Positions 39,549-57,809 of a stretch of 63,052 nucleotides of DNA are shown piece by piece (within the stretch, counting starts at the first letter, position 1; each line of letters starts with the position of its first letter). Under the pieces are notes generated by a model. It saw only the letters and a program-made list of their open reading frames with translations, made no database searches and had not been told where the DNA came from. The stretch covers positions 1 through 63,052 of the forward strand of contig NZ_QOHG01000025.1 in assembly GCF_003319125.1 (NCBI RefSeq), read 5' to 3'. The translations under genes and the position numbers were made by a program. Origin of the DNA: Blastococcus sp. TF02A-26. GTDB lineage: Bacteria > Actinomycetota > Actinomycetes > Mycobacteriales > Geodermatophilaceae.

Positions 39549-39562
39549 AGGTCCTTGGTCCC
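39549..39562 (-). promoter_or_regulatory. DosR-like box upstream of PPOX gene
   Basis: The minus strand reads GGGACCAAGGACCT (GGGAC-CAAG-GACCT). The centre is 64 bp upstream of the PPOX start at 39620. Consistent with the layout of other boxes in the window. Confidence 0.55.
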
Positions 39563-39619
39563 GTGGTCACCGACCAAGAGCCCGGCCGGCGGCGCGGTCC
39601 GGGCGGCCACGATGGCGGC

Positions 39620-40072
39620 ATGACGAGCGCCGCCGACCTGCTCGAGACGATCCCCGCGGAGGAGTGCTATGCGCTCCTGGCCGACCACGAGGTCGGCCGG
39701 ATCGGCGTGATCGCCGAGCACCACCCGCTGATCATCCCGGTCAACTACGGGATGGACGGCCGGACGATCGTCATCCGGACCCACCCGGGTTCCACCCTCA
39801 GCGCGGTGGAGCACGCCAACGTGACCTTCGAGGTCGACGACATCGACCGGAGGACCCGGACCGGCTGGAACGTGCTCGTGCGCGGCCTGGCCGAGGAGGT
39901 CGGACCCCGGCACCGGGCCGGCCTCGTCCGGCGCACCCACGCCGCGGGCGTGGAGCCCTGGGCCCCGGGCGGGCACGGCAGCTGGCTGCGGATCATCCCG
40001 CAGTCGGTGAGCGGCCGGCGCATCGTCCGCGGCCAGCTCCCGTGGGGAGTCGACGACCGGGCCTATCTCTGA
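39620..40072 (+). CDS. PPOX-family flavoprotein (pyridoxamine 5'-phosphate oxidase-like)
   Basis: 150 residues, split beta-barrel. Family landmarks: LADHEVGRIGVIAEHHPLII, PVNYGMDGRTIVIRT and VTFEVDDIDRRTRTGWNVLV. FMN- or F420-binding members of this group act on diverse substrates, and in mycobacteria some are DosR-induced. The ATG at 39620 is preferred over an upstream ATG because the barrel begins soon after it. A DosR-like box is 64 bp upstream. A second PPOX gene with the same organisation is at 49616-50035. Confidence 0.9.
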   Translation: MTSAADLLETIPAEECYALLADHEVGRIGVIAEHHPLIIPVNYGMDGRTIVIRTHPGSTLSAVEHANVTFEVDDIDRRTRTGWNVLVRGLAEEVGPRHRAGLVRRTHAAGVEPWAPGGHGSWLRIIPQSVSGRRIVRGQLPWGVDDRAYL

Positions 40073-40258
40073 CGCGACCTGTCCGCCGGGGCCGACCTCC
40101 GCGCTCCTGACAGGCAGGACCGTGGGGCCGATCCACAGGAGGCAGGAACCGGCGATGCGACTCCTCGGACGGGAGACCGTGTCACTCGGCGGGCTGGCGG
40201 TGTCCGCCGGGGCGCGCAGACGGTCGACGGAGCGTGGCTGGCCCGGCTGGGCTTCCTG

Positions 40259-40609
40259 ATGGCGGCGGCGGCAGCGTTCTCGCACCGCCCCTGGCAGCCG
40301 GGCCGGGACTTCGACCGCACCGAGGACCTGCTCCACTCGGTCGCCGCCACCACCATGGGCATCGCCTTCGCCGCGGGGGTCGTTGCCACCGCCGTGCTCG
40401 CGGCCCGCCGCGGTCGGCGCCGGGCCAGGGTGCTCGACGCCGTGGCGCTCGCCGCCTCCGTCGTCCTGCCGCTGGGGATGTCCGCGCTGCCCGAGGCCGA
40501 CGGTGTCCTGCAGCGGCTCATGTTCGCCGTCGCCTACGTCTGGTACGGGCGTGAGGCGTTGGTGCTGCGGCGGACGCCGGACGAGGTGGGGACCCGTCGG
40601 CCCGGCTGA
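40259..40609 (+). CDS. DUF998-like membrane protein, probably N-truncated
   Basis: 116 residues that read like the C-terminal half of a DUF998-type multi-pass protein: EDLLHSVAATTMGIAFAAG, RVLDAVALAASVVLPLGMSA, then QRLMFAVAYVWYGREAL. The family's N-terminal TMs are missing. In the preceding 100 bp another frame begins at ATG 40155 (after a purine-rich stretch) and ends at 40258, and the DUF998 frame continues a little upstream as QTVDGAWLARLGF. A frameshift or partial deletion seems likely. Whether it is expressed is unknown. Confidence 0.55.
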   Translation: MAAAAAFSHRPWQPGRDFDRTEDLLHSVAATTMGIAFAAGVVATAVLAARRGRRRARVLDAVALAASVVLPLGMSALPEADGVLQRLMFAVAYVWYGREALVLRRTPDEVGTRRPG

Positions 40610-40652
40610 GCTCCGGCCCCGACCACGCCGGGGAGTCCCGCCACGGCGGTCG

Positions 40653-41411
40653 TCACAGCGCCGACCAGCCGCCGTCGCAGGCGAGGACGACGCCGTTGAC
40701 GTTGCTCGCGTCGTCGGAGGCGATCCAGGTGATGGCGGCGGCCAGCTGCTCGGAGGTGGCGATGGGCGGGATGGTGGCCGCCATGATCGGGCCGAGGACC
40801 TCGCCGGCGAGGGTCGACCGGAACGGCGCCTCGATCTCGGTCGCGACCGGTCCCGGCGCGACGGCGTTGCAGCGGATCCCCTGTGGCCGGTAGAAGAGCG
40901 CGGTGCTGCGGGCGAGGCTGTTCACCGCCGCCTTGGACGCGGCGTAGGCGACTCCGGACGCCGAGGCGCGGAAGCCGGCCTCGGAGGAGACGTTCACGAT
41001 CGAGCCCCCTCCGGCGGCCAGCATCACGGGCAGGACCGCGCGCGTCATGCGCATGGTCGCGGTCAGGTTCACCGCCAGGACGCGCTCCCAGGTGTCGTCG
41101 TCCATCTCGGCCGGCGGCAGGAAGCCGTCCATGATCCCGACGTTGTTGACCAGGACGTCGATCCGCTCGCCGGCGGCGGCCACCAGGGCGGCGGGGCTGT
41201 CCAGGGAGGCGATGTCGCCGGGCACGGGCACGAGCGGCAGGTCACCGTGCTCGGCGACCAACTGCTCCAGGCGCGGCGCGGAGACGTCGGCGGCGACCAC
41301 CCGCGCGCCCTCCCGGGCCAGCCGCAGCGCGGTGGCCCGTCCGATGCCGGCCCCCGCCCCGGTCACGATCGCGGTGCGTCCCTCGAATCGGCCGGCGGTG
41401 TGTTCGGTCAT
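40653..41411 (-). CDS. short-chain dehydrogenase/reductase
   Basis: 252 residues, classical SDR. Motifs: TGAGAGIGRATALRLA near residue 16, NNVGIMD near 90, SSEAG near 141, YAASKAA (YxxxK) near 155, PGPVATEI near 187. The ATG at 41411 is exactly 43.5 bp from the centre of a DosR-like box (GGGACCAAGGGCCC), the spacing expected if the mRNA is leaderless. It is divergent from the arginine pathway operon. The substrate is unknown. Confidence 0.92.
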   Translation of the reverse strand: MTEHTAGRFEGRTAIVTGAGAGIGRATALRLAREGARVVAADVSAPRLEQLVAEHGDLPLVPVPGDIASLDSPAALVAAAGERIDVLVNNVGIMDGFLPPAEMDDDTWERVLAVNLTATMRMTRAVLPVMLAAGGGSIVNVSSEAGFRASASGVAYAASKAAVNSLARSTALFYRPQGIRCNAVAPGPVATEIEAPFRSTLAGEVLGPIMAATIPPIATSEQLAAAITWIASDDASNVNGVVLACDGGWSAL

Positions 41412-41447
41412 GTCAGCAGCTCACCCGCCGAGTGGCGCTCCCGGTCA

Positions 41448-41461
41448 GGGACCAAGGGCCC
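41448..41461 (+). promoter_or_regulatory. DosR-like box facing the SDR gene
   Basis: GGGACCAAGGGCCC (GGGAC-CAAG-GGCCC). The centre, 41454.5, is 43.5 bp from the SDR start codon. DosR sites in mycobacteria commonly lie about -40 to -65 from the transcription start. Confidence 0.65.
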
Positions 41462-41544
41462 GCCCGGACCGGGAGAGGTCCCCGCGCGACCGTGGCCGTC
41501 GAACCGGGTCCCGAGCGGTCCCGGGCGTGCGGCCCTACCGGTCG

Positions 41545-41558
41545 GCGACCTTGGTCCC
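41545..41558 (-). promoter_or_regulatory. DosR-like box upstream of the arginine pathway operon
   Basis: The minus strand reads GGGACCAAGGTCGC, with a good left half and a weaker right half. A CAGCGT -10-like hexamer at 41583-41588 would place transcription start near 41595, 43.5 bp from the centre. It is positioned to drive the arcDABC-type operon. Confidence 0.5.
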
Positions 41559-41630
41559 TGGGACGACGTGATCTCCCGCGGCCAGCGTGTTCCCGTCCGC
41601 AACGGAGCAGGTCAGGACCGAGGAGTCCCC

Positions 41631-43121
41631 ATGAGCACGACGTCCCCAGCGGTGGAGCCGGACTCCGCCGCTCCCGGCGAGCACCGCTTCGGCCTACCGA
41701 CGGCCACGGCGCTCGTGGTCGGGTCGGTGATCGGCACCGGCGTGTTCGCCCTGCCGTCGGCGCTCGCGGCCTACGGGCCCGTCAGCCTCGTCGCCTTCGT
41801 CGTGGTGACCGTCGGCGCGCTCGCCCTCGCCCTGACCTTCGGCTCGCTGTCCCGGCGGCTGCCGGGCTCGGGTGGCCCCTACGTCTACGCCCGGGACGCC
41901 TTCGGTGACTTCGCCGGCTTCCTCAACGCCTGGTCGTACTGGATCACCGCCTGGGCGGGCAACGCCGCGATCGCCGTGGCCTGGGTCGGCTACGTCGAGG
42001 TGTTCGTCAACGAGGGGCACGCCACCGGCTGGTCGATCGCCATCGCCCTCGCCGGCCTGTGGATCCCGGCGGTGGTCAACCTCTCCGGCCTGCGCAACAC
42101 CGGCGCCCTCCAGGTCGTGACGACGGTGCTGAAGTTCATCCCGCTCCTCTTTATGGCCACCGTCGGGCTGCTGTTCGTCGAGAGCGGCAACTTCGGCGAG
42201 TTCAACGCCTCGGGCATGTCCGTGGGCGGCGCCATCTCCGCGGCGGCCGCGATCGCGCTGTTCAGCTACCTCGGCATCGAGGCCGCCTCCGTCGCCGCCG
42301 GCCGGGTCCGCGACCCGCGCCGCAACGTCGGCCGGGCCACGGTCCTGGGCACCCTGGCCTGCGCGGCCGTCTACATCCTGGGCACGCTCGCCGTCTTCGG
42401 GACCGTCTCCAACGCCGACCTCCAGGCGTCCACGGCTCCCTTCACCGACTCGGCGAACGCGATCTTCGGCGGTGAGTGGGCCGGGCAGGTCGTGGCGGTC
42501 GCCGCGGTCGTCTCCGGTCTGGGTGCGCTGATCGGCTGGACGCTGATCGTCGCGGAGATGCCCAAGGCCGCCGCGGAGGACCGGCTGTTCCCGCGGCAGT
42601 TCGCGACCACCCGCCGCGGGGTGCCGGCCTTCGCCGTCGTCGTCTCCACGCTCCTGGCCTCGGTGCTGGTGGTCGTGAGCTACACGAGCTTCTCCAACGT
42701 CTTCACCACCGTCGTCCTGCTGACCGTGCTGACCGCCGTGATCCCGTACCTGTTCAGCGCGGCGGCGCAGCTCTACTGGCTGGCCACCCACGGCCGCGCC
42801 ACCCGGTGGCCGCACCTGGTGCGCGACGTCGTGATCTCGGTCCTGGCCCTCGGCTTCTCGTTCTGGGCGCTGGCCGGCAGCGGGTACCAGGCCGTGTACT
42901 ACGGCGTCTTCGGCTTCTTCCTCGGCGTGCCCGTCTACGTCTGGCTGAAGGTCCAGCGTCGCGAGTACGGCGAGCCCGGCCGCGCCGAGGTCGCGGTCGC
43001 GCCCCCGGTCCTGCCCCCGGCCGACGCCGCGGTCGTGCAGGTGACCGGCGTCCTCCTGCCCGAGCAGCGGCAGACCACCAACGGATCCTCCGCGGCGGCT
43101 GCGCCGACGCGGGTCTCCTGA
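41631..43121 (+). CDS. arcD: APC-superfamily arginine/ornithine antiporter-like protein
   Basis: 496 residues, about 12 TMs. TM1 carries the APC glycine motif VVGSVIGTGVFALPSAL. The family Glu/Gly-rich segments GGPYVYARDAFGDFAGFLNA, ALFSYLGIEAASVAAGRV and the long hydrophobic helices follow. In arginine deiminase operons the partner transporter exchanges arginine for ornithine; the gene order here (antiporter, arcA, arcB, arcC) supports that role. The ATG follows AGGAGTCCCC. Downstream, arcA starts 21 bp after the stop. Confidence 0.87.
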   Translation: MSTTSPAVEPDSAAPGEHRFGLPTATALVVGSVIGTGVFALPSALAAYGPVSLVAFVVVTVGALALALTFGSLSRRLPGSGGPYVYARDAFGDFAGFLNAWSYWITAWAGNAAIAVAWVGYVEVFVNEGHATGWSIAIALAGLWIPAVVNLSGLRNTGALQVVTTVLKFIPLLFMATVGLLFVESGNFGEFNASGMSVGGAISAAAAIALFSYLGIEAASVAAGRVRDPRRNVGRATVLGTLACAAVYILGTLAVFGTVSNADLQASTAPFTDSANAIFGGEWAGQVVAVAAVVSGLGALIGWTLIVAEMPKAAAEDRLFPRQFATTRRGVPAFAVVVSTLLASVLVVVSYTSFSNVFTTVVLLTVLTAVIPYLFSAAAQLYWLATHGRATRWPHLVRDVVISVLALGFSFWALAGSGYQAVYYGVFGFFLGVPVYVWLKVQRREYGEPGRAEVAVAPPVLPPADAAVVQVTGVLLPEQRQTTNGSSAAAAPTRVS

Positions 43122-43142
43122 GAACCGGACGGAGAACCCCTC

Positions 43143-44393
43143 ATGACGCACGGACTCGGTGTCCACTCGGAGGTCGGCCGGCTCCGCCAGGCGATCGTCC
43201 ACCGCCCGGGCCTGGAACTGTCCCGGCTCACCCCGGCGAACTGCCGCGACCTGCTCTTCGACGACGTCCTCTGGACCGAGCGGGCGCAGGAGGAGCACGA
43301 CGTGTTCGCCGGCGTCCTGCGCGACGCCGGCGTCACGGTCCACCACTTCGGCGAGCTCTTCGCCGAGACGCTCAAGTCGGCCGAGGCCCGGGCCTTCGTC
43401 CTGGACCGTGTCTGCACCGACCACGCCCTCGGGCCGGCCCTGGCCCGCTCGGTGCGTGCCCTGGCCGCCGATCTCGGCCCCGCCGACCTCGCCGAGCTCA
43501 TGATCGGCGGGATCACGAAGGCCGACGTCTCACCGCTGTCGCTGCACAGCCTCCGCTGGGCCAGCCTCCAGCTCGACGAGTTCGTGCTCCCGCCACTGCC
43601 CAACACGCTCTTCCAGCGCGACAACTCGGCCTGGGTCTACGGCGGCGTCACCGTGAACCCCATGGCCATGCCGGCCCGGCGCCGGGAGACGGTGCACAGC
43701 CGGGCCGTGTACCGCTACCACCCGCTCTTCGCCGGCGCGGCGTTCTCCACCTACTACGGCGACGACGACGCCGACCACCAGCCCGCCACGCTCGAGGGCG
43801 GCGACGTCCACGTGCTCGGCCGCGGTGCCGTGCTCGTCGGCATGGGTGAGCGGACGACGCCGATGGCCGTGGAGATCCTCGCCCGGCAGCTGTTCCGCCA
43901 GGGCGCCGCGCGGGTCGTCGTCGCCGTCGAGCTCCCGCGGTCGCACGCGTTCATGCACCTCGACACCGTCATGACGATGGTCGACACCGACACCTTCGTC
44001 CGTTATCCCTACCTCGACCCGGCGTCCCTGCGGCCCTGGGTGGTCACGCCGGCCGATCCCGACGAGGTGCTCGAACGAGGGGACGCCGGCCTGCACGTGG
44101 AGCGCCGCGACGACCTCGTCGACACCCTCGCCGAGGTACTGGGGCTCGACCGGGTCCGGGTGCTCACCGCCGACGAGGACGAGCGCGCCGCCCAGCGCGA
44201 GCAGTGGGACGACGCGGACAACTTCCTCGCCGTGGCACCCGGCGTCGTCGTCGGCTACGAGCGCAACGTCGTCACGAACACGATGCTCGCCGACGCCGGC
44301 ATCCGGGTGCTGCCCATCCCCGGGGAGGAGCTCGGCCGCGGCCGCGGCGGCGCCCGGTGCATGACCTGCCCGATCCAGCGCGACGGCATCTGA
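43143..44393 (+). CDS. arcA: arginine deiminase
   Basis: 416 residues, standard length. Converts arginine to citrulline and ammonia. Motifs: GVHSEVGRLRQAIVHRPG at the N-terminus, LPNTLFQRDNSAW (family FTRD) near residue 155, LEGGDVHVLG near 218, HLDTVMTMVD near 275, and the C-terminal GRGRGGARCMTCPIQRD holding the catalytic Cys. All catalytic positions appear intact. With the antiporter, arcB and arcC it forms the ADI pathway that yields one ATP per arginine in the absence of oxygen. It begins 21 bp after the antiporter gene. Confidence 0.95.
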   Translation: MTHGLGVHSEVGRLRQAIVHRPGLELSRLTPANCRDLLFDDVLWTERAQEEHDVFAGVLRDAGVTVHHFGELFAETLKSAEARAFVLDRVCTDHALGPALARSVRALAADLGPADLAELMIGGITKADVSPLSLHSLRWASLQLDEFVLPPLPNTLFQRDNSAWVYGGVTVNPMAMPARRRETVHSRAVYRYHPLFAGAAFSTYYGDDDADHQPATLEGGDVHVLGRGAVLVGMGERTTPMAVEILARQLFRQGAARVVVAVELPRSHAFMHLDTVMTMVDTDTFVRYPYLDPASLRPWVVTPADPDEVLERGDAGLHVERRDDLVDTLAEVLGLDRVRVLTADEDERAAQREQWDDADNFLAVAPGVVVGYERNVVTNTMLADAGIRVLPIPGEELGRGRGGARCMTCPIQRDGI

Positions 44394-44405
44394 GGGAGCC
44401 CCGAC

Positions 44406-45408
44406 ATGGACACCGCACGTCACCCCGGGTCGCTCACCAAGGAGCTCGACCTGGACGCCAAGCAGTTCCTCGGCCTGCTCGACCGGGCCGCGCAGCTCAA
44501 GGCCGCGAAGGCGGCCCGGGCCGAGGACCGGCTCCTGGAGGGCCGGAACATCGCGCTGGTCTTCGAGAAGGACTCCACGCGCACCCGGTGCGCGTTCGAG
44601 GTCGCGGCCGCCGACCAGGGCGCGCGGACGACCTACCTCGGCCCGGCCGGCAGCCATCTGGGGCGGGAGGAGTCCGTGCGCGACACCGCCCGGGTGCTGG
44701 GCCGGATGTACGACGCCATCGAGTTCCGCGGCTTCGCCCAGGAGACGGTCGAGGAGATGGCCGGCGCCGCCGGCGTCCCGGTGTGGAACGGCCTGACCGA
44801 CAGCTGGCACCCGACCCAGATGCTCGCCGACGTGCTCACGATGCTCGAGCACTGCTCGGGCTTCGTGCAGGACATCCGCTTCTGCTTCACCGGCGACGGG
44901 CGCAACAACGTCGCGCGGTCCCTGCTGGTCACCGGCGCGCTGCTGGGCATGGACGTGCGGATCGCCGCGCCGGCGCAGCTGCAGCCGCCGGCCGACGTGG
45001 TCGCCACGGCCCGGGAGCTGGCCGCCGCCAGCGGTGCGCGGGTGCTGGTCACCGACGACCCGCGCGAGGGGGTGGCCGGCGCCGACTTCGTGTACACCGA
45101 CGTGTGGGTTCAGCATGGGTGAGCCGCAGGAGGAGTGGGACCGCCGGGTTCCGTTGCTGACCCCGTTCCGCGTCACCGCGGACCTCATGGCCGCCACCGG
45201 CCGGCCGGAGAGCCGCTTCCTGCACTGCCTGCCCGCGGTCCACGACCGCCGGACCGTGCTGGGCCGGCGGGTGTACGACCGTTACGGGCTCGACGGCGCC
45301 GAGGTCACCGACGAGGTGTTCGAGTCGGCCCGGTCGGTGGTGTTCGACCAGGCGGAGAACCGGCTGCACACCATCAAGGCGGTCATGGTCGCCGCACTGG
45401 CCGGCTGA
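44406..45408 (+). pseudogene. arcB: ornithine carbamoyltransferase, frameshifted
   Basis: The catabolic OTC (citrulline + phosphate to ornithine + carbamoyl phosphate). The first frame gives 238 residues with [14 protein letters not shown] (carbamoyl phosphate loop) and [15 protein letters not shown], and reads into DVWVQHG and a stop at 45122. Shifting by one base at the extra T in GGGTTCAGC (45109-45110) restores VWVSMGEP and the remaining 95 residues, with HCLPAVHD and [17 protein letters not shown]. With the T removed the protein would be a full 333 residues. As written, the pathway lacks its middle step. Sequencing error, real mutation, or an anabolic OTC elsewhere compensating are all possible. 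Confidence 0.9.
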
Positions 45409-45409
45409 G

Positions 45410-46321
45410 GTGCGGGTCCTCGTCGCCCTCGGCGGCAACGCACTGCTGGAGCGCGGGGAGGCCCCGGACGAGGCGGTGCAGCGGCGGCACGTGCGGCGGG
45501 CCGCCGCGGCGCTGGCCCCGCTCGCGGCCGCGCACCAGCTCGTGGTCAGCCACGGCAACGGCCCCCAGGTCGGGGTGCTGGCGCTCGAGTCGGTCCGCGA
45601 CCCCTCGCTGCACCACCCCTACCCGCTGGACGCCCTGGGGGCGGCCACCCAGGGCATGATCGGCTACTGGCTGGCGCAGGAGCTGGCGAATGCGGGAGTG
45701 CGGGCGCCGGTCCTGGCGGTGGTCACGCAGACCGTGGTCGACGCCGACGATCCCGCGTTCGGGGCGCCGTCGAAGTTCATCGGCGAGTCCTACGACCGGG
45801 CGGCGGCCGAGTCGCTCGCCGCCGCCCACGGCTGGCGCATCGCCCCGGACGGGGACCGCTGGCGCCGGGTGGTGCCCTCCCCGCGGCCCCTGCGGATCGT
45901 GGAGGAGGGCTGCCTGCGGGCGCTCGTCGCCGGCGGCGCCGTGCTCGTCTGCGGCGGCGGGGGCGGCGTGCCGGTCGTGGCCGACGGGCGCGGGGCCACC
46001 CGCGGCGTGGAGGCCGTCGTCGACAAGGACATGACGGCGGCGCTGCTGGCCCAGCGGCTGGGTGCCGACCGGCTGCTCCTGCTCACCGACGTCCCCGCGG
46101 TGATGCGCGACTTCGGCACGCCGGCCGCGAGCGAGGTGCGGCGGATGGACCTCGCGGAGGCCGGTGCCCTCTCCCTCCCGGCCGGGTCCATGGGGCCGAA
46201 GGTCGAGGCCTGCCGCGAGTTCGTCCTGCGGACCGGTGGTGTCGCGGCGATCGGCGCGCTCGGGGACGCCGCGGCGATCCTGGACGGACGGGCCGGGACG
46301 ACGGTGGTCCCCGGGCCGTGA
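45410..46321 (+). CDS. arcC: carbamate kinase
   Basis: 303 residues, typical length. Converts carbamoyl phosphate + ADP to ATP + carbamate, the energy-yielding step of the pathway. Motifs: VALGGNALL at the start, VVSHGNGPQVG near residue 45, CGGGGGVPVV near 180 and VVDKDMTAALLA near 205, then LTDVPAVMRDFG and GSMGPKVEACREFV. The GTG start is 1 bp after the OTC stop. It is intact even though the OTC is frameshifted. Confidence 0.95.
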   Translation: MRVLVALGGNALLERGEAPDEAVQRRHVRRAAAALAPLAAAHQLVVSHGNGPQVGVLALESVRDPSLHHPYPLDALGAATQGMIGYWLAQELANAGVRAPVLAVVTQTVVDADDPAFGAPSKFIGESYDRAAAESLAAAHGWRIAPDGDRWRRVVPSPRPLRIVEEGCLRALVAGGAVLVCGGGGGVPVVADGRGATRGVEAVVDKDMTAALLAQRLGADRLLLLTDVPAVMRDFGTPAASEVRRMDLAEAGALSLPAGSMGPKVEACREFVLRTGGVAAIGALGDAAAILDGRAGTTVVPGP

Positions 46322-46912: not shown

Positions 46913-47002
46913 GTCCCCACCGTGGCGCCGCACGGACGGCGTCGGGAGGGGCGGAGGCCCGCGGTGGAGGAGACGGAGGTCGCGCCGGGGGTCACGCCGG
47001 AC

Positions 47003-47047
47003 GGGACCTTCGACTCTGAGCACGGCGGGCCGGGCTACGCCTAGCCT
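47003..47047 (+). promoter_or_regulatory. DosR-like box and -10 of the DevR-type gene
   Basis: GGGACCTTCGACTC (47003-47016) followed by TAGCCT (47042-47047). If transcription starts 7 nt after the hexamer (about 47054), the box centre is at -44.5. This points to positive autoregulation of the response regulator and could also serve the divergent flavodoxin gene. Confidence 0.6.
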
Positions 47048-47119: not shown

Positions 47120-47794
47120 GTGGAGCCATCCGTGGACGACGCCCCGGGGACCATCCGGGTCTTCCTCTTGGACGACCACGAGATCGTCCGTCGCGGGGTC
47201 GCCGACCTCCTCGAGAGCGACCCGGCCATCACCGTGGTCGGGGAGGCCAAGAACGCCAAGGAGGCGGTCGCCCGCATCCCGGCGCTCCGGCCGGACGTCG
47301 CGATCCTCGACGTGCGCCTGCCCGACGGCGACGGGGTGTCGGTCTGCCGTGACGTGCGCTCCCTCCTGCCGGAGCTGAAGGTCATCATGCTGACCAGCTA
47401 CAGCGACGACGAGGCCCTGTTCGAGGCGATCATGGCCGGGGCCTCGGGGTACATGCTCAAGCAGATCCTCGGTCAGGACCTGGTCAACGGCGTCCGCACG
47501 GTGGCCGCGGGCGGGTCGCTGCTGGACCCCACGGCGACGACCGCGGTCCTCGAGCGGATGCGGCGGGCGGCCGAGCCCGCCGGGCCCCTGGCCAAGCTCA
47601 GCGAGCAGGAGCGGACCGTCCTGGAGCTCATCGGAGAGGGCCTGACCAACCGGCAGATCGGCGAGCGCATGTTCCTGGCCGAGAAGACCGTGAAGAACTA
47701 CGTCTCCCACCTGCTGGCCAAGCTGGGCCTGGAGCGCCGCACCCAGGCGGCGGTGCTGGCGACGGAGCTCCGCGGCTCCCAGTCCTCGCGCTGA
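47120..47794 (+). CDS. DevR/DosR-type response regulator
   Basis: 224 residues. Receiver domain: [18 protein letters not shown] at the start, phosphoacceptor Asp in [19 protein letters not shown] near residue 62, [20 protein letters not shown] and the Lys in GYMLKQILG near 110. The LuxR HTH has [20 protein letters not shown], then [23 protein letters not shown] and RRTQAAV. The [20 protein letters not shown] stretch is characteristic of the DevR/DosR/OsdR family. The GTG at 47120 has GGAG 8 nt upstream. Its likely partner kinase lies tail to tail, 11 bp away. Confidence 0.93.
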
Positions 47795-47805: not shown

Positions 47806-50035
<2,230 letters not shown>

Positions 50036-50114
50036 GCGGTTCCTCGTCTTCCTTCCCCGGCGCCCCCGGTCGGCCGCCCCGTCGACGATGCCCGCTGCCA
50101 CCGCTGGACATGCC

Positions 50115-50128
50115 GGGTCCAAGGTCCC
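50115..50128 (-). promoter_or_regulatory. DosR-like box upstream of the second PPOX gene
   Basis: The minus strand reads GGGACCTTGGACCC, a nearly perfect dyad (plus strand GGGTCCAAGGTCCC). The centre lies 43.5 bp from the transcription start implied by CATCGT (50090-50085 on the minus strand). Confidence 0.65.
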
Positions 50129-50179
50129 GGAGAAGCTGCCGGTGGTCCCCCATCCGGTCGGGCGCCACCTTTCCACGGG

Positions 50180-50737
50180 TCAGCCGGACGGGACAGGCGC
50201 CACTGCGGCTGGGGTCGCGGGCGCCGCGACGAGAGCCGCGGCGATCTCGTCGGCCCACGCCCGCACCTGGGTCCAGTCACGGGCGTCGCCGACCGGCGCC
50301 CGCATGGCCGTCACGACGGCGCGCTCGGCGAAGGTGAGCAGCGCCGGCTCCAGCCGACCGGGGAGCACCCGCGTCCCGCGGGGGGACAGCAGGGCCGTCA
50401 GCGTGGCGATGTCGTAGGGCTCGCCGTCCGGGAAGGGCGGCTGCCCGATCGGCCCGCTGGAGAACAGCCACAGCGGGCGGGCGCGCAGGACGGCCGCGGA
50501 GGCAGTGGCGAACTCCCGGGCGGCCGACAGCCAGGCACCGCCGTACACCGCACTGCCCAGCACGACCGCGTCGTAGTGCCGGGGATCCGGTCGGCGGTCG
50601 ACGGGGACGACGGAGGCCTGCACGTCCAGTCCGGGAGCGGCGGGGTTGCCCGTCAGGTCGCGTGCCAGTGCCGCGGCGATCTCCCGGGTGGCGCCGTGCC
50701 GGCTGGCGACCGCGACCAGCACCCGGGTGACGGTCAC
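50180..50737 (-). CDS. flavodoxin-domain protein
   Basis: 185 residues. Flavodoxin phosphate loop VASRHGATREIAAALARDL near residue 10; VLGSAVYGGAWLSAAREFA near 66; WLFSSGPIGQPPFPDGEPYD near 95; C-terminal DARDWTQVRAWADEIAAAL. Paralogue of the flavodoxin at 46358-46912. The GTG start overlaps the stop of the CBS-BON gene (GTGA). Probably a quinone- or protoporphyrinogen-linked redox protein. Confidence 0.87.
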   Translation of the reverse strand: MTVTRVLVAVASRHGATREIAAALARDLTGNPAAPGLDVQASVVPVDRRPDPRHYDAVVLGSAVYGGAWLSAAREFATASAAVLRARPLWLFSSGPIGQPPFPDGEPYDIATLTALLSPRGTRVLPGRLEPALLTFAERAVVTAMRAPVGDARDWTQVRAWADEIAAALVAAPATPAAVAPVPSG

Positions 50738-51369
50738 CGGGGACCACCCACGGCGGAGGACAGCACCTGCACGGCGACGACGCCGCCGACCGTCCGCGCC
50801 AGCGCCGTCAGCGCCCGCTCCTCGGTGCCGGGCGGGTCGTGCGACTCGCCGCGGGTCCGGCGGACGGTCGCGACCCCCTCCGTGACCGTGACGTCCCACG
50901 CGCCGAGCTCCCCGGTGTAGCGCTCGACGAGGTCCGTGAGCTCGGCGCGGATCTCGGAGTCGGTCCGGACGAGGGCCCGGAGCAGGTCGCGGCGGCTGAC
51001 GATGCCGACCAGGCGCTGCCCGTCGACGACCGGCACGCTGCGCAACCGCTCGTCGACGAAGAGCTTGGCGACGTCGGACACGTCGGCCCCGGACTCCACG
51101 CAGCGGACGTCCTCGGTCATGACGCCGCGGACCAGCAGCGGCAGCGCGTGCTCCTGCTCGCCGTCCCGGCGCAGGTGCAGCCGCGGATCCCGGGGCAGCC
51201 GGTCGCGGAGCACGTCGGCCTCGGCGACGATGCCGATCAGCTGGGCGTCCTCGTCGAGCACCGGGAGCGCGGCGAAGCCGTGCTCGGCCAGCAGCTCGCC
51301 GGCGTACTTGGCCGACGTGTCGGGCCCCACGGTGACGACCTCGCGCGTCATGACGTCTCTGACCTGCAC
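50734..51369 (-). CDS. CBS-CBS-BON protein (Hrp1-like)
   Basis: 211 residues. Two CBS motifs (VRDVMTREVVTVGPDTSAKY at the N-terminus; VRGVMTEDVRCVESGADVSD near residue 80) and a C-terminal BON domain (about 140-205, with LGAWDVTVTEGVATVRRT). The CBS pair resembles mycobacterial Hrp1, a DosR target. CBS domains bind adenine nucleotides and BON is often membrane associated. The GTG at 51369 follows GGAGGAGGAAGT, and a TAGCGT -10 lies on the minus strand at 51399-51404. It is first in an operon with a flavodoxin gene. Confidence 0.93.
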   Translation of the reverse strand: MQVRDVMTREVVTVGPDTSAKYAGELLAEHGFAALPVLDEDAQLIGIVAEADVLRDRLPRDPRLHLRRDGEQEHALPLLVRGVMTEDVRCVESGADVSDVAKLFVDERLRSVPVVDGQRLVGIVSRRDLLRALVRTDSEIRAELTDLVERYTGELGAWDVTVTEGVATVRRTRGESHDPPGTEERALTALARTVGGVVAVQVLSSAVGGPR

Positions 51370-51398: not shown

Positions 51399-51470
51399 AC
51401 GCTAGGCAGCAGCGGCCGGCGGTCCCAGGGTCGGCGGACCGGCGATCCCGTGACCCAGGGCCCTGGGGTC
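51399..51470. promoter_or_regulatory. CBS/Usp divergent control region with DosR-like dyad
   Basis: Contains TAGCGT (minus strand, 51404-51399), the GGTCCCAGGGTC element (51421-51432) and the dyad GACCCAGGG/CCCTGGGGTC (51452-51470). The dyad shares the GGG/CCC cores of the other boxes but has a different spacer, so it is a lower-confidence DosR site. It lies about 92 bp from the CBS start and 109 bp from the Usp start. Confidence 0.45.
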
Positions 51471-51569
51471 CGGGACGTCCGGCCCGGCGACGGCCCCGCT
51501 GCCGCACCGACACCCTGCGGGGAGACGGACCGGGACCCGCCCGGCGCCTCGACCGACAGGACGGCCGGC

Positions 51570-52539
51570 GTGGACACACTCGACCAGCGCGACACCCCTC
51601 GGCCGCGGATCGTGGTGGGCGTCGACGGCTCGGACGGCGCCCGGGCCGCCCTCCGTCACGCGCTCGCGGCCGCGGCCGCGCGGGGGGCCTCCCTCGAGGT
51701 GGTGGCCGGGTGCGCCCCGGAGCTGTACTGGACCGGCGGCGCTCCGCTGGTCGTCCCCGACGTGCCCGCTCTCCGGGACACCACGCGGGAGCGCACCCTG
51801 GAGGCGGTGGCCGCGGCGCGCCGGTCGGCGCCCGAGACCGCGGACGTGCCGGTCGACGTGCTCGTCACGGTGGAGCCGGCGGCCGGGGAGCTGGTGCGGC
51901 GCTCGGAGGGGGCCGCCCTGGTCGTCGTCGGCAGCCGCGGACACGGTGCGGTCCGCAGTGCCCTGCTCGGCTCGGTCGCCCTGCACGTGAGCACGCACGC
52001 CGCCTGTCCCGTGCTCGTGGTCCACGCCGCGCCGGACGACCCGGCCGCGACGGCCGGCCCGAGCCGTGTCGTGGTGGGGGTGGACGGCTCCTCGACCGGG
52101 CGCGCCGCGCTCGCGGCGGCCGTCGAGGAGGCCGTCCGGCTGCACGCCGATCTCGACGTCGTCGCCTGCTTCAGCATGGGCGCGTACTGGGCGGACCTCG
52201 TCGGTGGTGGTGCCCACCACCGACGAGGTCCGGCAGGACGTGCGGCGGGAGGCCGAGACGCAGGTGGCGGCGGTCCTGGCCGACCGCCCCGACGGAGCCG
52301 TCACGCCGCGGGTGCACCTCGAGGTCACCCAGGGAGCTCCCTCGGACGTGCTGGTGCAACGGGCACGGGGGGCGGCGCTGCTCGTGGTCGGCAGCCGCGG
52401 GCGTGGTGCCGTGCGGGCCGCGCTCCTGGGTTCGGTGGCCCTGCACTGCGTCATGCACGCACCCTGCCCCGTGCTCGTCGTCCACCCGGAGCGGACCGCG
52501 ACGACCCCGGCGGCCCTCACCGGCACCGCGTCCGCGTGA
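51570..52539 (+). pseudogene. two-domain universal stress protein, frameshifted
   Basis: Domain 1 (IVVGVDGSDGARAALRHAL; ATP loop GSRGHGAVRSALLGS) and the beginning of domain 2 (VVVGVDGSSTGRAALAAA to FSMGAYWADLV) are in the first frame. At 52197-52212 the frame breaks. Removing one G from the GTCGGTGGTGG stretch restores VVVPTTDEVRQDVRREAETQ and the second ATP loop GSRGRGAVRAALLGS, giving a normal two-domain Usp of about 322 residues ending at 52539. The site lies within a perfect 14-bp hairpin. It is divergent from the CBS-BON gene. A truncated first domain could still be made. Confidence 0.85.
52197..52227. repeat. perfect 14-bp hairpin at the Usp frameshift
   Basis: CTCGTCGGTGGTGG (52197-52210) pairs exactly with CCACCACCGACGAG (52214-52227) around a TGC loop, inside a coding region. 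The inferred extra G lies within the left arm; without it, the hairpin would be imperfect. Confidence 0.85.
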
Positions 52540-52563
52540 CCGGGGCCGCCGCGGAGCGGGCCC

Positions 52564-52577
52564 TACCGTGCGGGACA
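52564..52577 (+). promoter_or_regulatory. leaderless -10 element of the DUF1003 gene
   Basis: TACCGT (52564-52569), then 7 nt, then the ATG at 52577, with no ribosome-binding site. It is identical in spacing and sequence to the element at 28834-28847. Confidence 0.45.
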
Positions 52578-53038: not shown

Positions 53039-53696
53039 GGCTCTCGACCGGTACGGGGGCGCCCTCGGCGAACCGCCGCTCGGCGCGGTGCTTGATGCCG
53101 TGCAGCATCCGGCGGGTCATGACGAGGGTGACCGGCTCCATGACCCGGTTCGCCAGGCGGAGTCCGATCCCCGACGGCCGGCGGGCGATCGAGCGGGAGA
53201 GCAGCCGGCTCCGGCCGGGCCCGTGCGGGACGAGGTGGAAGGACCACACGGCGTTCCACGGGTGCTCCGGCGGCGCCTGGCGGAGCACCAGCGCGCGCCC
53301 GGGGAGCACCTGCGCCACGGGGAACGAGTACCCCTGGGGGATCGGCCCGTACCCGGCGGGGACCACCTCGACGCGGTCGCCGGGCGCGAGGTGCTGCCAC
53401 TCCTCCCGGATCTCGTCGGTGGAGTGGATGTCCAGACCGATCAGGTTCTCCAGCCGGTCGTAGCTGTACATCCCGCCGCGGCCCCTGCCGATCTGCACCA
53501 GCCACGGCCAGACCGCCTCCGGCGGAGCCTCGACGGTGACGGCCAGGGTCGTCTGCTCCACCGAGCCGGGGACGAGCTCGTCCCCGGGGAGGACCCGGGT
53601 GGCCTCGCCGCGGGTGGCGCCCCAGTCCCGCGTGGCGTGCAGCAGCTGGTCGGCCAGCGCGACCGTGCCGGCCGTCGCCGCGAGCGCGCGGATCAT
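53022..53696 (-). CDS. SRPBCC-family protein
   Basis: 224 residues with a START/SRPBCC-like fold. Landmarks: TTLAVTVEAPPEAVWPWLVQIGRGRG near residue 50 (quoted as TLAVTVEAPPEAVWPWLVQ), MYSYDRLENLIGLDIHSTDE, and the sheet HPWNAVWSFHLVPHGPGRSR. The ATG at 53696 overlaps the stop of the DUF6544-like gene (ATGA), implying a shared task, probably binding a lipid or hydrophobic ligand. An N-terminal hydrophobic stretch (ALAATAGTVALADQ) may be a short membrane anchor. Confidence 0.85.
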   Translation of the reverse strand: MIRALAATAGTVALADQLLHATRDWGATRGEATRVLPGDELVPGSVEQTTLAVTVEAPPEAVWPWLVQIGRGRGGMYSYDRLENLIGLDIHSTDEIREEWQHLAPGDRVEVVPAGYGPIPQGYSFPVAQVLPGRALVLRQAPPEHPWNAVWSFHLVPHGPGRSRLLSRSIARRPSGIGLRLANRVMEPVTLVMTRRMLHGIKHRAERRFAEGAPVPVESPTAAP

Positions 53697-54502
53697 CGGA
53701 CGGTCCTCCCGGGGTCGACGTCGAGAGCGTCGTCGAGGGCGAGGTCGAGCAGGCTCAGCTCGGCGTAGACCAGCCGGCTGCCGTCGGGCAGGTGCCAGAG
53801 GGCGCAGGCCCGGCCCAGGCGGGGCAGCCCGTCCACGGTGGTCCAGTCCAGGACCGGGGTGCTCCAGGTGGCGCGCACGAGACCACCGGGCAGGTCCGCC
53901 CAGCGGTCCTCGGTCCGGAAGTCCCGCGGGCGGTCGCGGGCGCCGAGCAGCACCTCCGCGGAGACGGTCCGGCCGGCGTCGGTGACCGCGACCCGGAAGG
54001 AGTCCTCCCCGGTCTCCTCCCAGCGCACCCGCGGGTCCAGCAGCATCCCCGGTGCCAGGAGGACGGCGTCGTTGAGCCACGTGACCAGCTCGCTGGTGTC
54101 GAACTCCGGGCCCGAGCCGTCGGCCACCGGTACGACACCCAGCAGCTTCCCGCGCATCCGGCCGTGCCCGGACCGGTAGGTGTCCCAGCCCCACATCGGT
54201 ACGGCGCCACCGAGCAGCAGCCGCATCCGGAACAGGCGTGCGATCTCGTCGACGGTGTTGACCTGCCAGGCCTCGCACGGCATCCAGCGCCCGCCCGGAC
54301 CGCGCCGGAAGCGGCCGCCCAGGTGGGCCCGGAACGACCGGGTGCGCGGCCGGCCCACGACGCCCATCGCCGTCAGGTACCGGCGCACGGGGTGCGGCAA
54401 CCCGGCCAGGTCCCCCTCGGCGACGGGCTCGCCGGGCGGGGGCGCGGCAGCCGCGGTCGCGGGGGCGTGCGCAGCACCCTGCTGGGTTCGGTGGCGCTGC
54501 AC
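53693..54502 (-). CDS. DUF6544-like protein with uncertain start
   Basis: The conserved portion (about 240 residues) begins AGLPHPVRRYLTAMGVVGRP, followed by RSFRAHLGGRFRRGPGGRWM, FRMRLLLGGAVPMWGWDTY, GRMRGKLLGVVPVADGSG and DRWADLPGGLVRATWS. This matches the DUF6544 group. The open frame extends far upstream with no obvious start. The GTG at 54502 is the first within reach, but it lies inside the remnant of the divergent Usp gene, and its 30 extra residues are Ala/Pro-rich. The original promoter and start may have been lost in a deletion. Coupled to the SRPBCC gene. Confidence 0.65.
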   Translation of the reverse strand: MQRHRTQQGAAHAPATAAAAPPPGEPVAEGDLAGLPHPVRRYLTAMGVVGRPRTRSFRAHLGGRFRRGPGGRWMPCEAWQVNTVDEIARLFRMRLLLGGAVPMWGWDTYRSGHGRMRGKLLGVVPVADGSGPEFDTSELVTWLNDAVLLAPGMLLDPRVRWEETGEDSFRVAVTDAGRTVSAEVLLGARDRPRDFRTEDRWADLPGGLVRATWSTPVLDWTTVDGLPRLGRACALWHLPDGSRLVYAELSLLDLALDDALDVDPGRTVR

Positions 54503-55039
54503 TGCGTCGCGCACGCCCCGTGCCCGGTCGTCGTCGTGCACCCCGCGGCCGTGCAGGTGCCCCTCCGCGTCGTCGTCGGGATCGACGACTCCGCCATGTC
54601 GCGGGCGGCGCTGGCACGGGCCGCCGCGGAGGCACGCCGGCTGGGCGGGGAGCTCGAGGTCGTCGCGGTCCAGCCCCCGGTGGCGTACTGGAGCGAGGTG
54701 CAGGCCGTGGTCCTGCCGCCGATCGCGGAGGCGCGCGAGCAGCTGCGGCAGCGGGCCGGGGAGATCGTGGCCGAGGTGCTGGGAAACGCGACGCCGGCCC
54801 GGGTCCGCGTGGAGGACGGTGCGCCGGGCGAGGTGCTGCCCCGCGTGGCCGCCGGCGCGGCCCTGCTCGTGGTGGGCAGCCGCAGCCGCAGCCGCGTCGC
54901 GGGGATGCTGCTCGGCTCCGTCGCGCTGCACTGCGCGGTCTCCGCACCCTGCCCGGTCATGGTGGTGCACCCGGAGCGCACCCGGGCGGCGGATCGACCG
55001 GCGACGGCGGAGGAGCCGGCCGCTGCGTCCGCGGGCTGA
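54446..55039 (+). pseudogene. universal stress protein, 5'-truncated
   Basis: Homology begins abruptly at GSRGRGGVRSTLLGS (54446), the end of a first Usp domain, runs through HCVAHAPCPVVVVHP, then a complete second domain starts at RVVVGIDDSAMSRAAL with GSRSRSRVAGMLLGS (the second Gly of the ATP loop is lost) and ends HCAVSAPCPVMVVHPE. About 120 residues of the first domain are missing. A GTG at 54551 could still start a 162-residue single-domain Usp. The upstream side is occupied by the divergent DUF6544-like gene. Confidence 0.75.
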
Positions 55040-55046
55040 CCGGCGC

Positions 55047-56045
55047 GTGCGCGCCTGGGTGGTCGGCATCCCGGCGCCGATCGCGGCGGGGCCGCTCCAG
55101 CGGGTCGAGCGGCCCCTGCCCGAGCCCGGTCCCGGGCAGGTCCGCGTCGACGTGAGCTGCTGCGGTGTCTGCCGCACCGACCTGCACCTGGCGGAGGGCG
55201 ACCTGCTCCCGCGCCGGCGCGGGGTCGTCCCCGGGCACGAGGTCGTCGGCCGCGTCGGGGCGGTCGGAGCCGGAGCCACCCGCTTCCGGCCGGGCGAGCG
55301 GGTGGGCGTGCCCTGGCTGGGGCGGACCGACGGCACCTGCCGCTTCTGCCGTCGCGGCGACGAGAACCTGTGCACCGCGCCGCTGTTCACCGGCTGGGAC
55401 GTCGACGGCGGGTACGCCGACGCCTGCCTGGTCGACGAGCGGTTCGCCTACCGGCTGCCCGAGGGCCTCGACGACGAGCAGGCCGCGCCGCTGCTGTGCG
55501 CCGGCATCATCGGTTACCGGGCGCTGCGCTGCGCCGACCTCCCGCCCGGCGGCCGGCTGGGCGTCTACGGCTTCGGCGGCAGCGCCCACCTGACCGCGCA
55601 GGTCGCTCTCGCGCAGGGGCTGCGTGTGCACGTGCTCACCCGGGGCGAGGAGAACCGGCGGCTGGCCCGCGAGCTCGGCGTCGACTCGGTGGGCGGTCCG
55701 GCCGACGCGCCGCCGGAACCCCTGGACGGTGCGGTCCTGTTCGCCCCGGCCGGTGAGCTGGTACCGGTGGCGCTGCGGGCCCTCGACCGCGGCGGCACCC
55801 TCGCCGTCGCCGGGATCTGGCTGTCGGCGGTCCCCGCGCTGGACTACGCCTCGGACCTGTTCCAGGAGCGCCGGCTGCGCAGCGTCACCGCGAACACCCG
55901 CCGGGACGGCGAGGAGTTCCTCCGGCTCGCCGTCCGCCTCGGCGTCCGCGCCACCACGACGGCCTACTCGATGGAGGACGCCCCGCGGGCCCTGGCCGAC
56001 CTGGCCGCCGGCCGCTTCGGGGGCGCAGCCGTGCTGCACGCCTGA
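55047..56045 (+). CDS. zinc-dependent alcohol dehydrogenase
   Basis: 332 residues, medium-chain dehydrogenase. Catalytic zinc site in CCGVCRTDLHLAEGD and GHEVVG; structural zinc Cys in GTCRFCRRGDENLC; cofactor region YGFGGSAHLTAQVA near residue 178. It resembles the AdhA/AdhP-like group, whose streptomycete homologue SCO0199 lies within the OsdR-controlled stress cluster. The GTG start is 7 bp after the Usp stop. Probably uses ethanol/acetaldehyde to regenerate NAD+ under oxygen limitation (inference). Its last 82 bp are antisense to the PAP2 gene. Confidence 0.92.
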   Translation: MRAWVVGIPAPIAAGPLQRVERPLPEPGPGQVRVDVSCCGVCRTDLHLAEGDLLPRRRGVVPGHEVVGRVGAVGAGATRFRPGERVGVPWLGRTDGTCRFCRRGDENLCTAPLFTGWDVDGGYADACLVDERFAYRLPEGLDDEQAAPLLCAGIIGYRALRCADLPPGGRLGVYGFGGSAHLTAQVALAQGLRVHVLTRGEENRRLARELGVDSVGGPADAPPEPLDGAVLFAPAGELVPVALRALDRGGTLAVAGIWLSAVPALDYASDLFQERRLRSVTANTRRDGEEFLRLAVRLGVRATTTAYSMEDAPRALADLAAGRFGGAAVLHA

Positions 56046-56665
56046 CGTGCGGGGACGCCGACGGCCAGGCACAGGACCGCCCCGAGGCACACGCCCACGG
56101 CGGCGCCGCCGACCACGTCCAGCGGTGCGTGCGCACCGAGGTAGACCCGTGCCACGGAGTTCAGCACCGCCAGCGCCAGGACCGCCGCCCGCCACCGCCC
56201 GCGCAGGTACGGCCAGAGCAGGACGACGACCCCGAACGCGACGACCGCGTGCCCGGAGGGGTAGGCGATCCCCGCGGAGGGCACGTCGCGCAGCACCGCG
56301 TCCTCGATCGTGCTCCCCGGCCGGGATCGCTGCACCAGCGCCTTCACCAGCTCGCCGTGGACCAGCAGCTTGAGCGGCACGAGGGCGACGAGGGCCAGCG
56401 CCAGCCGCAGGCGGCCCACCGCCAGCGCCGGGACCGCGAGCAGCAGCGGCATCCCGAGCACGCCGAGGAGCTGGAGGAGCCACAAGGGACCCTGCAGCGC
56501 GTCCGGCCAGCCGTTGACGACCCGGAACACCGCGGCCTCGGCGGGGCCCACCTCGCCGGACGCCACGGCCAGCGAGCACAGGACCGCGACCAGGGCGGCG
56601 GCGGCGGCCACGGCGCCGTCGGCCGCCCGCCGCCGGTGCCGCGGGGTCCCGGCGGAGCCGGTCAC
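55964..56665 (-). CDS. PAP2-family membrane phosphatase
   Basis: 233 residues, about six TMs. Catalytic motifs: KALVQRSRP (KxxxxxxRP) near residue 110, YPSGHAVVAFGV (PSGH) near 140, and SVARVYLGAHAPLDVVGG (SRxxxGxHxxxD-like, with Ala for Ser at the first position) near 185. It dephosphorylates lipid phosphates such as undecaprenyl or phosphatidic acid derivatives. The GTG start overlaps the flippase-like gene stop (GTGA). The 3' end overlaps the convergent dehydrogenase by 82 bp. Confidence 0.88.
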   Translation of the reverse strand: MTGSAGTPRHRRRAADGAVAAAAALVAVLCSLAVASGEVGPAEAAVFRVVNGWPDALQGPLWLLQLLGVLGMPLLLAVPALAVGRLRLALALVALVPLKLLVHGELVKALVQRSRPGSTIEDAVLRDVPSAGIAYPSGHAVVAFGVVVLLWPYLRGRWRAAVLALAVLNSVARVYLGAHAPLDVVGGAAVGVCLGAVLCLAVGVPARQACSTAAPPKRPAARSARARGASSIE

Positions 56666-57759
56666 GGAGCAGCGGGGTCGGCCTGCCCGGCGCCCCGCCG
56701 CCAGGCGATCCAGGCGACCAGCCCGCACGGGATCGGGAGGAACCACGTCAGCAGCCGGAAGACGAGCACGGCCGCCGCGGCGCCGGTCGCGCTCACGCCG
56801 ACGGCCGTCAGCCCGGCCACGTAGCTGAGCTCGGCCACCCCCAGCGCACCGGGGGTGATCGGGACGGCGGTGACGAGCCGGGTCACCGCGAAGACCGCGA
56901 GCACCGCCAGCCAGTGGACCTCCGCGCCCTCGCCGTCCACCGTGCGCAGGCAGACCAGGAGCAGCACGAACAGCGCCGCGTGGCTGACCACCGCGGTGAC
57001 GGTGAGCGGGGCCCAGCGCCCGCGCAGCAGCTCGAGCGAGTCGGTGCGGAACCGCTCCGCCCGCTCCGGCCAGCCCGTGGGCGGCTGCCGGCCGGCGGCC
57101 CGGGCGAGGCCGCCGACCAGCCGCTCGGCCAGCCGGGCGGCGACCGCACCCGCCGCCCGGTGCGTGACGATCGCGATCAGCGCCGCGACCACGAGCAGCA
57201 GGAGCACGCTGCCGAGGGCGGCGGCGACGGCGAGCCCGGGCGGGACGTCCGCCACGAGTGCCACGCCACCCAGTGCCAGGGCCGGGAGGCCGAACTTCAC
57301 CAGGTTGTTCCAGATGCCGGTGACGGCGACGGCGCGGGCGATCTGCGCCGCCGAGAACCCGAAGGAGTGGAACATCGCGGCGTTGGTCCCGACCCCGACG
57401 GCGAAGCCGGCCGGCACCGTGTTCGAGACGGCGGTCGACGCCTGGTCGCTCAGGATCGCCTGGGACAGCCGCAGCCCGGGCAGGGCGGCCATCCAGACGG
57501 GGGCGTAGGTGAGCAGGTTGACCACGGCAGCGGCGGCCACGATCGCCGTCTCACCGGCGGTGAGGTCGCGGACCAGCCCCCAGGCGTCGGCGTAGTCGGC
57601 CATCCGGGGCAGGACGCCGGCGAAGACGGCGCCGGCGACGGTGACGGTGAGCAGCGTGCCGCCCACGGGTCCGGTCAGCAGCCGCCGGAGCGACCCACGG
57701 GGGCGCGGCGGCGTCCGGGGCCGGGCGCTCAGGAGCTCCGGCGTGCGCTGTGCCGCCAT
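56662..57759 (-). CDS. lysylphosphatidylglycerol synthase TM-type flippase-like protein
   Basis: 365 residues, about eight TMs, from the family PF03706 (LPG_synthase_TM). Landmarks: LTAGETAIVAAAAVVNLLTY, SNTVPAGFAVGVGTNAAMFH, WNNLVKFGLPALALGG and PITPGALGVAELSYVAGLTA. Likely transports polyprenyl or phospholipid-linked molecules. The ATG at 57759 is 43.5 bp from a DosR-like box centre, and TCGACT (minus strand) sits at the -10 position, so it may be leaderless. Coupled to the PAP2 gene. Confidence 0.88.
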   Translation of the reverse strand: MAAQRTPELLSARPRTPPRPRGSLRRLLTGPVGGTLLTVTVAGAVFAGVLPRMADYADAWGLVRDLTAGETAIVAAAAVVNLLTYAPVWMAALPGLRLSQAILSDQASTAVSNTVPAGFAVGVGTNAAMFHSFGFSAAQIARAVAVTGIWNNLVKFGLPALALGGVALVADVPPGLAVAAALGSVLLLLVVAALIAIVTHRAAGAVAARLAERLVGGLARAAGRQPPTGWPERAERFRTDSLELLRGRWAPLTVTAVVSHAALFVLLLVCLRTVDGEGAEVHWLAVLAVFAVTRLVTAVPITPGALGVAELSYVAGLTAVGVSATGAAAAVLVFRLLTWFLPIPCGLVAWIAWRRGAGQADPAAP

Positions 57760-57795
57760 GGGCCCAGTCGACACGGCGGAGGGCACCGGCCGCGC

Positions 57796-57809
57796 GGGCC
57801 GTTGGTCCC
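57796..57809 (-). promoter_or_regulatory. DosR-like box upstream of the flippase gene
   Basis: The minus strand reads GGGACCAACGGCCC (GGGAC-CAAC-GGCCC). The centre (57802.5) is 43.5 bp from the flippase ATG, the same spacing as at the SDR gene (41411). Confidence 0.65.

Follow-up and report, generated by a model that had tools for sequence, protein, structure and literature searches.

The 63,052-base window analysed here, which makes up the whole of contig C23 of Blastococcus sp. TF02A-26 (genome of 4.68 Mb in 53 contigs), very probably carries a DevR/OsdR-type oxygen-responsive regulon, in which palindromic boxes stand before a devR-like response regulator gene and a set of dormancy-type genes. 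This assignment follows from an excess of boxes found with a position matrix, from the geometry of their promoters, from the likeness of the regulator and its kinase to DevR and DevS, and from box counts that follow the regulator across related genomes. The computed findings are the protein families, the boxes with their excess and spacing, the promoter geometry, the conservation among relatives and the co-occurrence of boxes and regulator. A DosR/OsdR-like regulon had already been proposed in a sequence-only reading of this DNA, and the regulator, kinase, box, promoter geometry and target classes (universal stress proteins, Usp; pyridoxamine-phosphate-oxidase-like proteins, PPOX; two Acg-family proteins; and devR) agree with it. 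The regulon is of a known kind and a new example in the Geodermatophilaceae; what sets it apart is that two boxes are followed by an arginine deiminase operon.

All eight boxes of the layout GGGAC-N4-GNCCC listed in the sequence-only reading were located, with an exact match only at 41448, 50115, 57796 and 9893 (the box at 9890/9893) and one mismatch at 39549, 41545, 47003 and 9914. As written, with up to one mismatch allowed, the pattern is not enriched (84 matches against a shuffle mean of 115), and a 20-bp palindromic matrix was therefore built instead. It was seeded with published Streptomyces coelicolor OsdR sites and iterated on intergenic sequence from 12 related islands (L019–L030), the window being excluded; a Geodermatophilaceae matrix was needed because the S. 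coelicolor matrix ranks several of the listed boxes low. The palindrome in Blastococcus reads GGGAC(C/G)NN(G/C)GTCCC. With this matrix the eight listed boxes scored 10.1 to 17.1, and three good boxes absent from the earlier list were added at 2358 (16.7), 51469 (13.6) and 59440 (14.1), the last of which has a loose-pattern match 22 bp away and ranks top with the S. coelicolor OsdR matrix. The boxes, short-chain dehydrogenase being abbreviated as SDR and open reading frame as ORF, are:

2358..2377, minus strand: box before the Acg-family gene 1295-2287, score 16.7
9890..9930, no strand assigned: two boxes (9890, score 17.1; 9911, score 10.1) in the region between divergent Usp genes, spaced by 21 bp, from the matrix scan
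39546..39565, plus strand: box before the PPOX gene 39620-40072, score 12.9
41445..41464, minus strand: box before the SDR gene, score 15.5, centre-to-ATG distance 43.5 bp
41542..41561, plus strand: box on the permease side of the arginine deiminase operon, score 14.2, with the -10-like hexamer CAGCGT at 31.5
47000..47019, plus strand: box before devR, score 12.9, with TAGCCT beginning 32.5 bp from the box centre
50112..50131, minus strand: box before the PPOX gene 49616-50035, score 15.7, with the -10-like hexamer CATCGT at 31.5
51447..51488, minus strand: tandem boxes before the CBS-flavodoxin pair, at 51447 (10.3) and 51469 (13.6) with a step of 22 bp, from the matrix scan
57793..57812, no strand assigned: box between an LPG-synthase-like gene (minus strand, chosen ATG 43.5 bp off) and a small ORF at 57899, score 14.7
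59440..59459, minus strand: box before the Acg-family gene 58197-59360, score 14.1

Genome-wide statements rest on pattern searches and chosen stretches. The background consisted of 17 stretches of the same genome, chosen from contigs known from the regulator search and not drawn at random, and three further stretches that held a second regulator or a pattern match (L099–L101) were left out of it. At a threshold of 12, the 5,540 intergenic bp of the window had 10 matches and its 57,512 coding bp had none, and the background had 7 in 303,614 coding bp. A matrix search of the genome had been proposed along with the boxes, and on this sample the motif was not as frequent in other intergenic DNA, with no match of at least 12 in 36,386 bp (Fisher 1.6e-9, bases taken as independent). 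The intergenic counts for window and background were 13 and 9 at a threshold of 10 (Fisher 6e-7) and 7 and 0 at a threshold of 14 (Fisher 7e-7). Three hundred decoy matrices, made by mirrored column permutations, gave a mean of 0.23 matches and a maximum of 3, and altering the half-site spacing reduced the matches to 0–2. The S. coelicolor OsdR matrix alone gave a weaker excess, with 6 matches in 5,540 bp versus 6 in 36,386 bp at a threshold of 9 (p 0.0024), and p 0.0016 to 0.0095 across four thresholds. The boxes at 41445 and 41542 face the SDR and permease genes, neither of which has an adjacent box in the training set.

The boxes also have a characteristic spacing. Among 65 strong sites from the window and its relatives, with partner sites scoring at least 7, tandem pairs peaked at 22 bp (13 ordered pairs), with 4 pairs at 23 bp and 0–3 at each of the remaining distances between 12 and 60. 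Over 110 site-gene pairs and offsets of 12–63 bp from the box centre, the exact hexamer TANNNT occurred solely at 30–32 and 52–53 bp, the second peak lying one tandem step beyond the first. The exact hexamers at 30–32 all belonged to devR promoters, that of the window and those behind a box in 10 of the 12 relatives. When the devR-promoter pairs were removed, peaks of hexamers sharing two of the three bases persisted in the relatives at 30–31 (8 and 9 of 83) and at 52–53 (17 and 22 of 83). The claim that box centres lie at a fixed distance from predicted transcription starts agrees with the geometry in the window, where 6 of 10 sites had a -10-like hexamer (at least two of T1, A2 and T6) 31.5 or 32.5 bp from the centre (binomial p 8e-6). 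Such a spacing would place the box centre at -43.5 or -44.5 of the predicted start. At 41445 and 57793 an ATG lies exactly 43.5 bp from the box centre, for which leaderless mRNAs are predicted. With these predicted starts, the proximal box would lie over the -35 region and boxes are clustered, as at M. tuberculosis DevR promoters, where the proximal of the clustered sites covers -35 according to PMC3029386. This geometry fits activator sites.

A response regulator and a kinase are encoded within the same island, as the sequence-only reading had stated:

47132..47794, plus strand: devR-like response regulator DevR-A, receiver plus LuxR/NarL helix-turn-helix (Pfam; best solved relative 3c3w)
47806..49509, minus strand: devS/dosT-like sensor kinase, GAF-GAF-HisKA_3-HATPase (Pfam, alignments)

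The two genes are convergent. DevR-A is a DevR-type regulator of the NarL family, and its best PDB match was M. tuberculosis DevR (3c3w, E 2.1e-81, residues 8–217 of 220), followed by VraR at 3.3e-45; the phospho-Asp region and the recognition helix aligned with 3c3w. The GAF-A domain of the adjacent kinase had the GAF domains of DosT and DevS as best PDB matches. Its putative haem residues, with numbers counted on the alignments, are His143 and Tyr165, which align with His149 (haem) and Tyr171 (distal) of DevS, and a Gly occupies the position of DevS Glu87, as in DosT. The roles of these residues follow PMC4082495, which treats the meaning of Glu87 as a matter of dispute. From these alignments we infer that the kinase would be a DosT-like oxygen sensor. 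Its closest relatives in one scan came from Blastococcus, Trujillonella and Geodermatophilus.

Box number followed the regulator across the family. Relatives of DevR-A with 73–92% identity were present in 52 other genomes of 112 searched. When GGGACSWHSGTCCC was counted on both strands in the 112 genomes, with DevR relatives taken at 1e-70, the mean was 8.0 boxes in genomes with DevR-A (n = 53), 4.5 in those with only DevR-B, a second regulator described below (n = 34), and 3.0 in those with neither (n = 25). DevR-A genomes differed from the rest at p 2e-9, compared with p 0.12 for a control pattern, and within genera the difference of 3.9 was reached by none of 20,000 permutations.

The genes behind the boxes include Usp, Acg/nitroreductase and devR itself. 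The sequence-only reading had placed all boxes before dormancy-type genes; boxes do lie before devR, Usp, PPOX, Acg, SDR and CBS genes, but the box at 41542 faces the permease of the arginine deiminase operon and that at 57793 an LPG-synthase-like gene, neither of them a classic dormancy gene. The genes, other than devR and the operon, are:

1295..2287, minus strand: Acg (Rv3131) family FMN oxidoreductase (NCBIfam NF047509, 322.6 bits, cut-off 199)
8907..9839, minus strand: two-domain universal stress protein (Pfam)
9992..10477, plus strand: universal stress protein (Pfam)
39620..40072, plus strand: pyridoxamine-phosphate-oxidase-like protein (Pfam)
40653..41411, minus strand: short-chain dehydrogenase (Pfam)
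49616..50035, minus strand: pyridoxamine-phosphate-oxidase-like protein (Pfam)
50180..51351, minus strand: CBS-pair protein and flavodoxin-like protein (Pfam)
56662..57759, minus strand: LPG-synthase-like gene (start placed by hand)
58197..59360, minus strand: Acg (Rv3131) family FMN oxidoreductase (NCBIfam NF047509, 294.7 bits, cut-off 199)

In 6 of the 12 related islands (L020, L021, L026, L027, L029 and L030), acg1 comes immediately after the flavodoxin gene next to devR; in the window the two genes are about 44 kb apart (2287–46358), with the arc operon among what lies between them. Two Usp ORFs of the window seem incomplete, 52066–52539 matching only the later part of the family profile and 54467–55039 beginning inside an apparent earlier domain.

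It is very improbable that the boxes are products of a GC-rich genome, either GC-rich palindromes arising by chance or terminator-like repeats. Such an origin would agree with a loose pattern no more frequent than in shuffles and with a strict palindrome dispersed across the genome, but the held-out matrix, the decoys, the half-site spacing, the tandem spacing, the -10 hexamers and the relative-genome tests all oppose it within the genome sample. Generic palindromes were rejected as an explanation, since the signal is lost with decoys and with changed spacing. Several observations nevertheless weigh against a DevR/OsdR-type regulon. The strict palindrome GGGACSNNSGTCCC occurs at 15 places in the genome, 1 of them in the window, and is not specific; 8 of the 15 lie inside genes by a quick gene call. 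The background stretches were hand-picked, the intergenic limits came from our own gene caller, and the start of gene 56662–57759 was moved by hand to 57759, which made the 57793 box intergenic where the first scan had it as coding. Shared ancestry accounts for part of the signal in the window, since the matrix was seeded with OsdR sites and its training islands are homologous. Across the family, the control pattern also leans to DevR-A genomes within genera (difference 0.6, p 0.07), the genome of Blastococcus sp. TF02A-26 itself counts just 5 boxes by the family pattern, and one genome (G080) counts 14 with no DevR relative at 1e-70.

The boxes could also be real and read mainly by another regulator. 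A second DevR/DevS pair is encoded on contig C11, with DevR-B at C11:25584-26219, and DevR-A therefore stays the putative binder of the boxes. DevR-B is 65–66% identical to DevR-A, has a nearly identical recognition helix and adjoins a DevS-like kinase that is 45% identical to the kinase of the window. A box scoring 14.9 (8387–8406 of stretch L099, on C11) lies 42 bp before a Usp gene adjoining this pair, and box counts are somewhat higher in genomes with only DevR-B than in those lacking both regulators (p 0.007). That DevR-B is the main reader, or that both regulators share the boxes, is nonetheless unlikely, as box number tracks DevR-A more closely (8.0 vs 4.5, and the permutations within genera), and boxes concentrate around devR-A while a 20-kb stretch of C11 has one intergenic match of at least 12. 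The three stretches L099–L101 together have three such matches, before Usp, PPOX and PAP2 genes. Those on contig C5 (stretch L100) are at 9480 and 14087, before the PPOX gene and the PAP2 gene, the latter with an LPG-synthase match below cut-off, and from them the regulon probably extends beyond the window.

The arginine deiminase branch is the part of the regulon worth an experiment. Two boxes precede the genes permease-arcA-arcB-arcC, that at 41445 pointing toward the SDR gene and that at 41542 toward the operon:

41652..43121, plus strand: amino acid permease, putative arcD role (Pfam; an in-frame ATG at 41631 is also possible)
43143..44393, plus strand: arginine deiminase arcA (Pfam 8.7e-115; NCBIfam PRK01388 above and TIGR01078 below cut-off)
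44406..45408, plus strand: ornithine carbamoyltransferase arcB, in two ORFs, 44406-45122 and 45115-45408 (Pfam halves; frame broken)
45410..46321, plus strand: carbamate kinase arcC (NCBIfam PRK12354 above cut-off)

The best NCBIfam models for the permease were antiporters, all those listed being below cut-off. The set of arcA, arcB, arcC and putative exchanger is present as four genes but not completely open, arcB being split. Some arcA relative was found in 111 of 112 family genomes, and arcA of the window type (at least 73% identity) in 3 of 112, namely Blastococcus sp. TF02A-26, G014 (82%) and G034 (73%, partial, at a contig end). In G014 (locus L149), boxes scoring 11.7 and 14.2 precede the permease gene, with a spacer and -10-like hexamer similar by eye to those of the window; on the same contig devR lies about 13 kb from the operon, and arcC is followed by an acetate kinase homologue, seen as two overlapping tblastn pieces. 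In G034 (locus L155) the operon is close to devR and the contig stops before the promoter.

Elsewhere the association was not seen. Five relatives with unlinked arc operons (50–56%) had no intergenic box of at least 10 in stretches of 12–20 kb, and the 48%-identical arcA copies of TF02A-26, G015, G010 and G063 had a weak match of 11.3 about 0.9 kb upstream, which was not counted as a box. No arc gene was found at 1e-15 in the loci (up to 10 kb on each side) of 68 other kinase relatives. Across the phylum, 24 genomes had an arcA match at 1e-110, TF02A-26 included, and the 19 others that gave loci had no box above 12 upstream of arcA (up to 1.5 kb, two of them without gene calls); at L200 a lone match of 16.3 sits inside arcB. 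No link between arginine deiminase and DosR, DevR or OsdR appeared in titles or the starts of abstracts, in a literature mostly outside subscription journals. The M. tuberculosis Usp Rv2624c is reported to alter arginine levels (PMC5071874).

The chances appear about even that arginine fermentation has come under the control of the dormancy regulator in some Geodermatophilaceae, so that loss of oxygen, acting through the DosT-like kinase, would switch on arcDABC (with the downstream acetate kinase homologue in L149) and dormancy would bring its own non-respiratory ATP supply. This reading follows from the boxes before the permease in the window and L149, from the operon lying near devR in the window and L155, and from the lack of boxes at the unlinked arc operons of the five relatives. 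It is also quite possible, if on balance doubtful, that the regulon is real and the operon a decaying passenger in it instead of a working part. Such a passenger would fit the rarity of the operon type and the broken frame of arcB, which keeps one frame over the junction in all 7 family relatives and all 16 others showing both parts (23 of 23 in all). It fits less well with the open arcA and arcC of the window and with the similar box, spacer and -10-like hexamer at the L149 permease, whose arcA is 82% identical; the frame break itself may be real, or a sequencing error could account for it.

The nearest known systems are those of S. coelicolor and M. tuberculosis. The OsdK/OsdR island is of the same kind, its targets including Usp, PPOX and nitroreductase genes as well as the regulator itself, and the palindrome also accommodates published OsdR sites such as AGGGACCTTCGGCCCC (PMC5069765). 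The S. coelicolor consensus, AGGGCCGATCGGCCCT, differs from the Blastococcus GGGAC(C/G)NN(G/C)GTCCC, and osdR-osdK form an operon, unlike the convergent Blastococcus genes. A word search of the main text of PMC5069765 found none of "arginine", "deiminase", "acetate kinase" and "CBS". Like M. tuberculosis DevR (DosR), with at least two boxes, the proximal one over -35 (PMC3029386), the Blastococcus system has Acg/Rv3131, Usp and devR among its putative targets; Usp, nitroreductase and dosRS are DosR targets in PMC10034137. Neither "arginine" nor "deiminase" occurs in the main text of the DosR papers on M. abscessus and M. avium (PMC10034137, PMC11876180). The likeness extends to the proteins, the regulator being nearest to 3c3w and the kinase GAF domain having the aligned haem His and distal Tyr of DevS/DosT. 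The mycobacterial consensus has A/T-rich flanks, which the Blastococcus box is without, and the M. tuberculosis DosR regulon is not known to include an arginine deiminase operon. Compared with arcDABC operons elsewhere, the enzymes are the same and their use, ATP without respiration, is likely the same. Those operons are under ANR/FNR or ArcR-type regulators, unlike the Blastococcus operon with its DevR-type box.

In the mechanism that we infer, which includes haem binding, DNA binding, phosphotransfer, an oxygen signal and activation rather than repression, a fall in oxygen would lead the DosT-like haem GAF kinase (47806–49509) to phosphorylate the DevR-like regulator (47132–47794). Phosphorylated dimers would bind GGGAC(C/G)NN(G/C)GTCCC, often at pairs of boxes 22 bp apart, and the promoter-proximal box, centred at about -43.5 and lying over -35, would assist RNA polymerase. 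The genes turned on would be devR, the Usp and PPOX genes, the Acg-type oxidoreductases, the SDR gene, the CBS-flavodoxin pair and, unusually, the arginine deiminase operon.

The Geodermatophilaceae are bacteria of soil, desert and stone that are not known as pathogens. The regulon described here would extend the dormancy switch of mycobacteria and streptomycetes to this family, with a testable motif, geometry and gene list. If the arginine deiminase link is true, it suggests how a respiring actinobacterium could make ATP without oxygen.

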